From: Dehalococcoidia bacterium
GTDB taxonomy: Bacteria; Chloroflexota; Dehalococcoidia; Lucifugimonadales; UBA3495
NCBI GenBank assembly: GCA_022827095.1
Contig: JAJDTP010000009.1
Coordinates: 62,001-126,000, forward strand
Length of the DNA stretch: 64,000 bases
Direction: 5' to 3'
Shown one piece after another: positions 26,775 to 29,143 of the stretch; position 1 is the first letter of the stretch, and each line of letters opens with the position of its first letter. Both the position numbers and the translations under genes were made by a program. The notes below the pieces were generated by a model. That model had not been told where the DNA came from, did not search any database, and was given only the letters and a program-made list of their open reading frames with translations.

Positions 26775-27806
26775 ATGCTTGCCACCGACGTTTCCGATGC
26801 CATCGAATTGATGTTTGAGACCGGATGGACCGACGGCCTGCCGGTGGTGCCGCCGTCCGAAGACCTGGTCCGCAAGTTCGTGGAGAGTATCGGCCGCGGT
26901 GGCGACGAACTCGTCGCGGAACTGCCGCCCCTGGGCGGAAGGGCCACCGTCGAACGCATCGCGGTTAACGCCGTCATGGCGGGCTGCCGGCCGGAGCACA
27001 TGCCGGTGATCATCACCGCCCTGGAGGCGATGATGGACGAGCGGTTCAACCTGCGGGGCGTGATGTGCTCCACCGGCATCCACACGCCGCTGCTGATCGT
27101 CAACGGCCCCATCGTCAAGGAACTGGACATCAACGGCGGTTACAACTGCTTCGGCTCAGGCTGGCGGGCCAACGCCACCATCGGCCGCGCGGTCAAGCTG
27201 GCCCTGCTCAACCTGGGCGGCGCCATCCCCGGCGAGACCAACAAGGCCACCTTCGGGCACCCCGGCGCCTACACCTACTGCGTCGCCGAGGACGAGGACG
27301 CCAACCCCTGGGAGCCGATGCACGTCGAGCTCGGCTTCGCCCCGACCGACAGCACGGTGTCGGTGTTCCCGGCAGAGGCCCCGCACAACATCATGTACCA
27401 CGCCTCCCACTCGCGGAACTTCCTGACCGTGCTGGCCGATACCATGTGCACCCTGGGCAACGTCCAGATGTACGTCATGGGCGATACTTTCGTGGTCATC
27501 GGCCCCGAGCACGCCAAGTTCCTCCACCGCGACGGGTGGAACAAGCGGGACATCCGCCAGTTCCTCTACGAGCACGCCCGCAAGCCGGTGCGGAAACTCC
27601 GCCAGGGCGGCCCGCCCCAGGGCGACTCCCGACGCGGCCACTTCTGGCCCCGGTACATCGACGCCGATGACGACGACCAGATGGTGCCGGTGGTGCGCGC
27701 CCCGGACCGCATCAACATTTTCGTCGCCGGCGGCGCCGGCGGCCCCCACTCGGCCTACCTGCCCGGCTGGGGCTCCCGCCGGGTCACGCGAAAGATCGAA
27801 CGATAA
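26775..27806 (+). CDS. conserved partner of the UGSC selenoprotein, unknown function
   Basis: A 343-residue soluble protein. Conserved-looking blocks are GWTDGLPVVPPSEDLVRKFV near 17-36, VMAGCRPEHMPVIITALEAM near 67-86, LLIVNGPIVKELDINGGYNC near 106-125, FGSGWRANATIGRAVKLALL near 126-145 and KATFGHPGAYTYCVAEDEDA near 157-176. Cys71, Cys98, Cys125 and Cys169 are candidates for redox or metal chemistry. I recognise the VNGPI..GPGxRANATIGRA pattern from proteins that occur beside, or fused to, UGSC-family (seleno)proteins, but I know no assigned reaction. It ends 22 bases before the selenoprotein start, so the two are almost certainly one transcript. Confidence 0.8.
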   Translation: MLATDVSDAIELMFETGWTDGLPVVPPSEDLVRKFVESIGRGGDELVAELPPLGGRATVERIAVNAVMAGCRPEHMPVIITALEAMMDERFNLRGVMCSTGIHTPLLIVNGPIVKELDINGGYNCFGSGWRANATIGRAVKLALLNLGGAIPGETNKATFGHPGAYTYCVAEDEDANPWEPMHVELGFAPTDSTVSVFPAEAPHNIMYHASHSRNFLTVLADTMCTLGNVQMYVMGDTFVVIGPEHAKFLHRDGWNKRDIRQFLYEHARKPVRKLRQGGPPQGDSRRGHFWPRYIDADDDDQMVPVVRAPDRINIFVAGGAGGPHSAYLPGWGSRRVTRKIER

Positions 27807-27828: not shown

Positions 27829-28386
27829 ATGACTGTCACAAATTACCAGGACCGAATGCGGGAACTGGGCTTGGCCCTGCCCATCGACCCGGACGCAGCA
27901 TCCCGCTGGCGGGCCGCGCCCCGGCTGGACACCCTGCACCACAAGGTCGGCGGCTTATTGGGCAACCGCAAGGCCAACGCTGATCTCCTGCTGCGGAACA
28001 TCGGCGAGCGGATGGCCAAAGACCTGGAACTAGGCGACATCATCGCCGTGGACAAGTTCGTCTATTCCCGCCCGGCCACCGATGAGATCATCAGCGATCT
28101 CTCCGACCGGTGCGATTTCGTGGTCACGGCGATTGCTGATTGAGGCTCCTGCACCGCGTGCAGTGTGCACGACGCAATGACCCTGGAGAACCTCGGCATC
28201 CCCACGGTGGTGCTCTGCACCGACCCGTTCCTGAACTCGGCCTTCCGCCACGCCCGCACCTTTGGCCGCCCCGACTTCCACCCCCTCGGCATCCCCCATC
28301 CCCTGGGCGGCCTGACCCCCGACCAAGTCTCGGTCCGCGCCGGTGAGCTGGAACAGGCGGTTATCGACACGCTGACAACCTACTAG
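27829..28386 (+). CDS. UGSC-family selenoprotein, TGA at codon 105 read as selenocysteine
   Basis: The frame from ATG 27829 meets TGA at 28141-28143 and continues without interruption to TAG 28384-28386. The residues after it are GSCTACSVHDAMTLENLG, so the motif is Sec105-Gly-Ser-Cys108, the defining signature of the UGSC family, with a further Cys111. The translated protein is 185 residues: a helical N-terminal part (DRMRELGLALPIDPDAASRW), the DRCDFVVTAIAD strand before Sec and a C-terminal PLGGLTPDQVSVRAGELEQA. The stop-split reading would leave the conserved C-terminal 80 residues without a start. Expression needs SelA/SelB/SelC/SelD elsewhere in the genome. Role unknown; a Sec-Cys pair suggests thiol/redox chemistry with the upstream partner. 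Confidence 0.85.
28144..28175 (+). promoter_or_regulatory. candidate bacterial SECIS hairpin after the Sec codon
   Basis: Right after the TGA the RNA can fold as CTGCAC-cgc-GTGCAG (28149-28163) or as GTGCA-gtg-TGCAC (28158-28170). The second places a G/U-containing loop about 20 bases after the TGA, within the spacing used by SelB. Both are by-eye foldings. Confidence 0.5.
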
Positions 28387-28420: not shown

Positions 28421-29143
28421 ATGGGGTCGCAGGATATTGACGCCAATCCATCGACAAGGTCAAACCTAGAGTCGACCCTACAGGAAGTCGTTATACAGGT
28501 TACCGTCGACCATTTCGAGAATGTCGAGGCTCACAATGCAGAGCCTGGAAAAGTAAAGAGACTATATCCCGAGAGCCTGCGGGCTGTGGCGGCAGCGAAA
28601 TTTATGATCGAGTACCCCGAAGAAAAGGTGGACCCTCAAGCCGAATACTTGGCCCGTTTCTTTGCAGTCTCTCCCCGATACATCAAAGCCGCACGGAGAA
28701 TGCTCACGGGCGATTGCCCAGAGCAAATCATTGCGGAGTTGAAATACGAGACAAAATCCGTCAGAGAATCCGAAATCCACTTCGACGCGTATAAATCTTG
28801 GACGCAGACAGACATCGCAGGCACCCATTATCTGTATGTGATCGTACCGGAGAAGAACCACACTGTGGGAAAAGTTGGCATCACCAACGACCTTCGCAGA
28901 CGGATTGCCGACCTTGACGCGGCGTCCACCCATAATCTTCACTTTGCCGCCAAGTTCCAAACGCGACGCAATGCCAAAGACGTTGAAGACCGGACTCTCC
29001 ACGCATATCGGATTAATCCCAGCGACAGAGAACGGATAATTGATTGGGATGACCAACAGATACTCAAGTGGACCATTTTCGGCGGAGGCAAATGGATCCC
29101 AGTTGCCGCCGGCTTTGACCGGTCGGGCCGTCTGTCGCGGTGA
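28421..29143 (+). CDS. protein with T5orf172/Mug113-type GIY-YIG domain
   Basis: A 240-residue protein. The C-terminal half reads HYLYVIVPEKNHTVGKVGIT then NDLRRRIADLDAASTHNLHF and AKDVEDRTLHAYRI, the pattern of T5orf172/Mug113-like GIY-YIG nuclease domains (the Y-V, K-V-G-I-T-N, R-R and the late Glu in VEDRTLHA). The N-terminal 120 residues include a possible helix-turn-helix (LARFFAVSPRYIKAARRMLT). Its target and role are unknown; such domains occur in phage and stand-alone proteins. A GGAGG-like AGGAGG lies before ATG 28421. GC and codon use look lower than the neighbours, suggesting transfer. Confidence 0.65.
   Translation: MGSQDIDANPSTRSNLESTLQEVVIQVTVDHFENVEAHNAEPGKVKRLYPESLRAVAAAKFMIEYPEEKVDPQAEYLARFFAVSPRYIKAARRMLTGDCPEQIIAELKYETKSVRESEIHFDAYKSWTQTDIAGTHYLYVIVPEKNHTVGKVGITNDLRRRIADLDAASTHNLHFAAKFQTRRNAKDVEDRTLHAYRINPSDRERIIDWDDQQILKWTIFGGGKWIPVAAGFDRSGRLSR

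Follow-up and report, generated by a model that had tools for sequence, protein, structure and literature searches.

A UGSC-family selenoprotein gene of a Dehalococcoidia bacterium, its conserved partner gene and a candidate two-protein reductase

The locus described here raises the question of whether a reading frame interrupted by a TGA codon encodes a selenoprotein and, if so, what such a protein might do. Within the window, by which we mean the whole stretch of 64,000 nucleotides that was analysed, the frame starts with an ATG at 27829, downstream of a Shine-Dalgarno-like AGAGGG, and ends with a TAG at 28384-28386. It is otherwise unbroken, the TGA at 28141-28143, which is codon 105, being its sole interruption. 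The features concerned are:

27829..28386, + strand: UGSC-family selenoprotein gene, 185 aa, selenocysteine (Sec) at codon 105 (PF24696, NF041046, Sec/Cys column in 81 homologues).
28141..28143, + strand: in-frame TGA, in all probability read as Sec, the U of U-G-S-C (TGA in L061-L063, Cys in some relatives, complete Sec machinery).

Around this site the product would read ...VVTAIAD-U-GSC-TACSVHDAM..., with U-G-S-C as residues 105-108. The read-through product scores 155.1 bits with the Pfam family PF24696 (UGSC; cut-off 25; residues 22-183) and 129.8 bits with NCBIfam NF041046 (UGSC family (seleno)protein; cut-off 125), and as both family cut-offs are exceeded the frame is far beyond chance. 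The original prediction had placed a UGSC-family selenoprotein at 27829-28386, and its coordinates and frame were correct. The window gene is a true UGSC selenoprotein, belonging to a family that is already named but uncharacterised.

It had also been predicted that this lineage makes selenocysteine. The source genome (3.79 Mb in 35 contigs, estimated to be 97.65% complete) contains selA (541 bits), selB (355 bits) and selD (376 bits), all above family cut-offs, together with tRNA-Sec (66 bits, above cut-off, anticodon TCA), and its selD itself has one in-frame TGA. Cys relatives had been expected at position 105, and alignment of 81 UGSC homologues from many phyla gave Sec in 77 and Cys in 4 at exactly the same position, the Cys forms coming from haloarchaea (Natrialba, Natronomonas) and Sphingomonadales. 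The TGA codon is kept in each of the three nearest relatives, L061, L062 and L063, in all of which conservation downstream of the TGA equals or exceeds that upstream of it; the ratio of non-synonymous to synonymous codon changes was 7/27 before the TGA and 2/15 after it in L061, and 28/30 and 12/23, respectively, in L062. Six further genes of the source genome, and most relatives, share this frame with its single TGA, and a sequencing error, an alternative that the original prediction had itself named, is therefore not a reasonable explanation. All the circumstances that the original prediction had listed as refuting it were checked, and none of them applied.

Insertion of Sec in bacteria would be expected to leave a trace in the RNA immediately downstream, where one further feature was found:

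28157..28171, + strand: putative bacterial SECIS hairpin, six-pair stem CGUGCA/UGCACG with an apical GUG loop, 19 nt after the UGA (covariation).

Each of the five core pairs of this hairpin is retained in 96-100% of 74 distinct Sec homologues, and compensatory changes occur. When a seven-pair stem was considered in 77 Sec genes, 91% of cells were paired, as against at most 54% with the partner strand slid. In the same number of Sec genes the third base of codon +6 and the third (wobble) base of codon +8 were G-C in 47 and C-G in 27, with 3 exceptions. Variants of codon +6 in Sec genes are TGG (Trp), TGC (Cys) and GGC (Gly); the commonest residue at +8 is Val, for which GTC and GTG are synonymous, so that the covariation points to selection on the RNA. 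A separate count on 16 of the same rows gave a covariation score of 0.348, which was not reached in 500 shuffles. The folding energy of the window hairpin alone is unremarkable (z -0.64). The hairpin downstream of the UGA covaries, as expected for a bacterial SECIS element.

These data bear directly on whether the TGA is instead a plain stop, with two separate genes, a pseudogene or a reassigned code as the outcome. The ordinary stability of the window hairpin alone would agree with such a stop, as would the frequency of TGA as a stop in the source genome, where it ends 33 of 84 other predicted genes of at least 200 residues in the window and the genome's other loci analysed; this same frequent and normal use as a stop rules out a global reassignment of TGA. 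A full Sec machinery, the presence of this TGA in most homologues and of a Cys codon in the remainder, constraint on both sides of the codon and a covarying hairpin all argue against a plain stop, which we consider scarcely credible. On these sequence data, selenocysteine is almost certainly inserted at codon 105.

Mis-annotation of such a gene as two ORFs had also been foreseen, and has indeed happened elsewhere: the record of a Paracoccus ferrooxidans plasmid splits the UGA-containing homologue into two hypothetical proteins, and the homologue on Acidovorax p2-T1 is annotated too short, ending near the TGA. Plasmid annotations often identify the UGSC gene by name, while the gene that accompanies it, described below, is a 'hypothetical protein' or unannotated in every record. 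On P. ferrooxidans pFER4 (L186 5399-12146) the UGA-containing UGSC gene is approximately 4 kb from selB, and the IncP plasmid p2-T1 of Acidovorax sp. T1 (L188 5425-5931), which is typed as conjugative, has both a UGA-containing UGSC gene and the accompanying gene. The source genome also holds another selenoprotein candidate, at C35:68451-68861 (L145), a PrdB-like protein of half length with an in-frame TGA followed by U-P-L-C.

The original prediction dealt with the UGSC gene and made no mention of its upstream partner, of the sevenfold expansion of the family or of its kinship to glycine/proline reductase B. The first of these is the following gene:

26775..27806, + strand: partner gene, 343 aa, separated by 22 bp from the UGSC gene downstream (every UGSC gene of the source genome, and nearly every relative, has a paralogue next to it).

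The window protein encoded by this gene has no Pfam or NCBIfam match, and no consistent match was found in 80 relatives. Its invariant residues include D20, N65, C71, N133, R138 and N146, with C71 as the only invariant Cys. Seven UGSC genes, all containing a single TGA, and seven partner copies, the window gene included, are present in the source genome. All seven UGSC genes adjoin or are fused with a partner paralogue, two of them at some 800-900 bp, and in the seventh copy UGSC and partner form one fused frame with the TGA inside it; beyond the pair, no neighbour is common to most of the seven copies. A search based on the partner gave 80 loci (L061-L140) in Chloroflexota, Rokubacteria, Proteobacteria, Binatia, Poribacteria, Acidobacteria, Nitrospinota and haloarchaea, the nearest named relatives being uncultured Dehalococcoidia and SAR202 assemblies. 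The 81 near-complete UGSC genes taken from these 80 partner-drawn loci and from the source genome's own loci all have a partner on the same strand, within 300 bp in 74 of them, and UGSC comes before the partner in 55 pairs and after it in 26, with a single fused frame in 14. Because the loci had been drawn by partner, the pairing was retested in 400 Chloroflexota genomes, in which UGSC was found in 42 and the partner in 42, with both in the same 41. Pairwise distance matrices of UGSC and partner correlate with r = 0.79, or 0.65 when diverged pairs are taken, and permutations gave no more than 0.13; shared species history contributes to such a correlation. Exceptions to pairing are some Poribacteria and a few loci truncated by a contig end. 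In the Poribacteria loci L081, L094, L098, L109 and L117 the partner is without approximately 60 C-terminal profile positions, and no UGSC gene was found in the examined flank. It is very probable that UGSC and its partner are functionally paired, a pairing of stand-alone genes of which the searchable literature holds no description. The partner family is without a Pfam or NCBIfam model though it is present in many bacterial phyla and in haloarchaea.

Families that recur near the pairs are tricarboxylate transporter receptors (TctC), TRAP receptors, type III CoA transferases, luciferase-like flavin oxidoreductases, enoyl-CoA hydratases, MmgE/PrpD and ThDP enzymes. The pair in the window has a luciferase-like monooxygenase gene ahead of it and, after it, a T5orf172-domain gene (28421-29143) and then an NHL-repeat gene; the codon composition of the T5orf172-domain gene, which lies directly downstream, is unlike that of its neighbours. 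Thioredoxin reductase genes stand at three loci, arranged trxB-trxA-partner-UGSC in Arthrobacter, partner-UGSC-trxB in Roseovarius, and with trxB two genes upstream of partner-UGSC in Variovorax. All three have Cys at the Sec site, and because the Sec-type loci searched had no trxB nearby, the link to thioredoxin rests on these three Cys-type loci. The Arthrobacter UGSC protein (L182 5028-5843) is extended at its C terminus by a segment containing a C-S-D-C motif, which was not noticed in other forms, and in Halalkalicoccus and Halorientalis a single UGSC is flanked by two partners. In the fused forms of Vibrio europaeus and Sporomusa termitida (L179 2823-4508, L180 2781-4505), which are near genes for aconitase X and DUF126, M-G-T-S replaces U-G-S-C; they form a branch free of chalcogen, so that the scaffold can evidently be kept without one. 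Cys108 is lost in approximately 4% of homologues.

Structure prediction gave confident models of both proteins. The AlphaFold2 model of UGSC (70 sequences, pLDDT 93.2, Sec105 modelled as Cys) is predicted to consist of five strand-helix units, with a helix between every two strands and Sec105 lying between the strand at 97-103 and the helix at 106-121. Its structural neighbours are flavodoxin-like and receiver-like folds, with Z up to 11 and none specific. The 2008 Global Ocean Sampling survey gives the UGSC fold as 'likely Trx-like' (PMC2398784), but the thioredoxin order beta-alpha-beta-alpha-beta-beta-alpha with its antiparallel pair is not found in the predicted model, and the fold is predicted to be flavodoxin-like, not thioredoxin-like. 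For the partner model (pLDDT 92.6) no solved structure was a convincing relative. Its top Foldseek match is the class I fumarase subunit 7xky_A (E 6.1e-5, TM-score 0.27, VIA-align Z 4.7), while comparison of the partner with PF05681 (class I fumarase alpha) gave no hit in any of 81 members up to an E of 1, and hhalign against fumarase alpha subunits gave 0.2%; the fumarase relationship was thus a Foldseek lead with no sequence support. No useful sequence kinship to solved structures was found for either protein.

In comparisons of sequence profiles, UGSC residues 84-161, a match of approximately 70 residues, align with the Sec segment of GrdB-type reductases; hhalign of UGSC with Chloroflexota GrdB/PrdB-like sequences gave a probability of 93.7% (E 1.9e-7), as against at most 1.4% for unrelated controls, and NCBIfam glycine reductase B (TIGR01917) matches 22 of 70 UGSC members, with a best E of 2.3e-6. 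Some GrdB-type proteins of other Chloroflexota have U-G-S-C or U-G-T-C at the aligned place. The match of UGSC to TIGR01918 (16.3 bits) is far under the cut-off of 65.45, and PF07355 is absent from the Pfam matches of the UGSC protein. As judged by these profiles, the active-site segment of UGSC is homologous to the Sec segment of B subunits of the glycine/D-proline reductase type, a relationship that, like any link of UGSC to SAR202, is the subject of no paper in the searchable literature. That the partner might be a remnant of the rest of GrdB was also considered, and was unsupported (hhalign 1.4% with the C-terminal GrdB part tested).

The kinship to Grd/Prd Sec sites, the alternation of Sec and Cys and the nearby trxB genes together favour a reductase recharged by thioredoxin, and for this chemistry we regard the case as evenly poised. 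We infer that UGSC and its partner form a physical complex, in which UGSC would be the catalytic, chalcogen-bearing subunit and the upstream 343-residue protein the other subunit. Sec105 would open a helix in which Cys108 follows three residues later, an arrangement like that at the Sec site of the B subunits of glycine, sarcosine and betaine reductases and of D-proline reductase PrdB. The partner is likely to be the substrate-binding half, since it is larger and has most of the invariant polar residues, and it may bind and activate a small organic substrate through its invariant Asp, Asn, Arg and Cys71. This substrate would be attacked or reduced by the selenolate of Sec105, a selenenyl sulfide would then form between Sec105 and either Cys108 or the partner's Cys71, and thioredoxin and thioredoxin reductase would reset it. 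The presence of seven diverged pairs in one genome suggests different substrates, in line with the paralogue expansions of catabolic enzymes proposed in SAR202 (PMC10444878), and there may be one pair per substrate class in the catabolism of organic acids or CoA esters. Taken whole, the proposal of a two-protein, Sec-dependent and thioredoxin-recharged reductase for organic compounds, with substrate-specific pairs, has in our estimation an equal chance of being right or wrong. Weighing against it are the absence of trxB from the surroundings of the Sec-type loci searched, the shortness of the GrdB match and the lack of a pyruvoyl subunit beside it, the loss of Cys108 or of the whole chalcogen motif in some relatives, the Poribacteria partners with no UGSC gene in the examined flank, and a partner fold with no convincing solved counterpart. 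Still more tentatively, and at rather less than an even chance, it may be a widespread and so far unrecognised class of Sec-dependent two-component reductase with a stand-alone GrdB-type site and no pyruvoyl subunit, recharged by thioredoxin, whose substrate-specific pairs have multiplied in Chloroflexota and whose Cys form has been carried to, for example, haloarchaea.

Two other kinds of enzyme could be imagined for the same pair. UGSC might be a general thioredoxin-like redox protein handling thiols and disulfides or peroxides, with the partner as its protein substrate, as its UxxC motif would allow and as is compatible with the 'likely Trx-like' fold and the fusion to an unnamed domain given in PMC2398784. 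However, the confident model is an alternating beta-alpha structure with flavodoxin-like neighbours and no antiparallel pair of the thioredoxin type, the second Cys is sometimes lost, and seven diverged pairs in catabolic neighbourhoods that vary are easier to reconcile with substrate-specific enzymes than with a housekeeping role, making this an unlikely reading. It is similarly improbable that the pair is a lyase, dehydratase or isomerase in which Sec or Cys serves as nucleophile or base with no net redox change, the partner being distantly like class I fumarase. The Foldseek match of the partner to 7xky_A, the aconitase X and DUF126 genes adjoining the M-G-T-S forms and the recurrence of MmgE/PrpD genes would all suit such an enzyme, but the low TM-score and VIA-align Z of that match, the 0.2% from profile comparison with fumarase alpha subunits and the single invariant Cys of the partner speak against it, and it leaves the trxB neighbours unexplained.

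In one survey UGSC accounted for 8.2% of marine selenoprotein genes (PMC9402790). The partner, the kinship to GrdB and the link to trxB are the parts of this work able to advance the question of its function, in that a conserved partner, a homologous active site and trxB neighbours make this function experimentally approachable. The Cys-type pairs of haloarchaea, Roseovarius and Arthrobacter make study possible without selenocysteine expression.

The window gene shares with the UGSC family (PF24696/NF041046) a whole-length match, the U-G-S-C motif, Cys relatives and conserved flanking residues, and has no feature that distinguishes it; seven copies per genome is high, with similar numbers in other Chloroflexota. 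PMC2398784 describes a fusion of UGSC to a second conserved but unnamed domain, Unknown_1, which may be the present partner, and fused UGSC-partner frames were found here too. Unlike GrdB, UGSC is a single domain of approximately 180 residues without the rest of that protein, its partner has no detectable kinship to Grd proteins, nor by Pfam or NCBIfam to any known family, and no pyruvoyl subunit (GrdE/PrdA type) was found with it. What UGSC has in common with GrdB/GrdF/GrdH and PrdB (PF07355, TIGR01918) is, on profile evidence, a homologous Sec-site segment, together with the U-G-x-C motif present in both.
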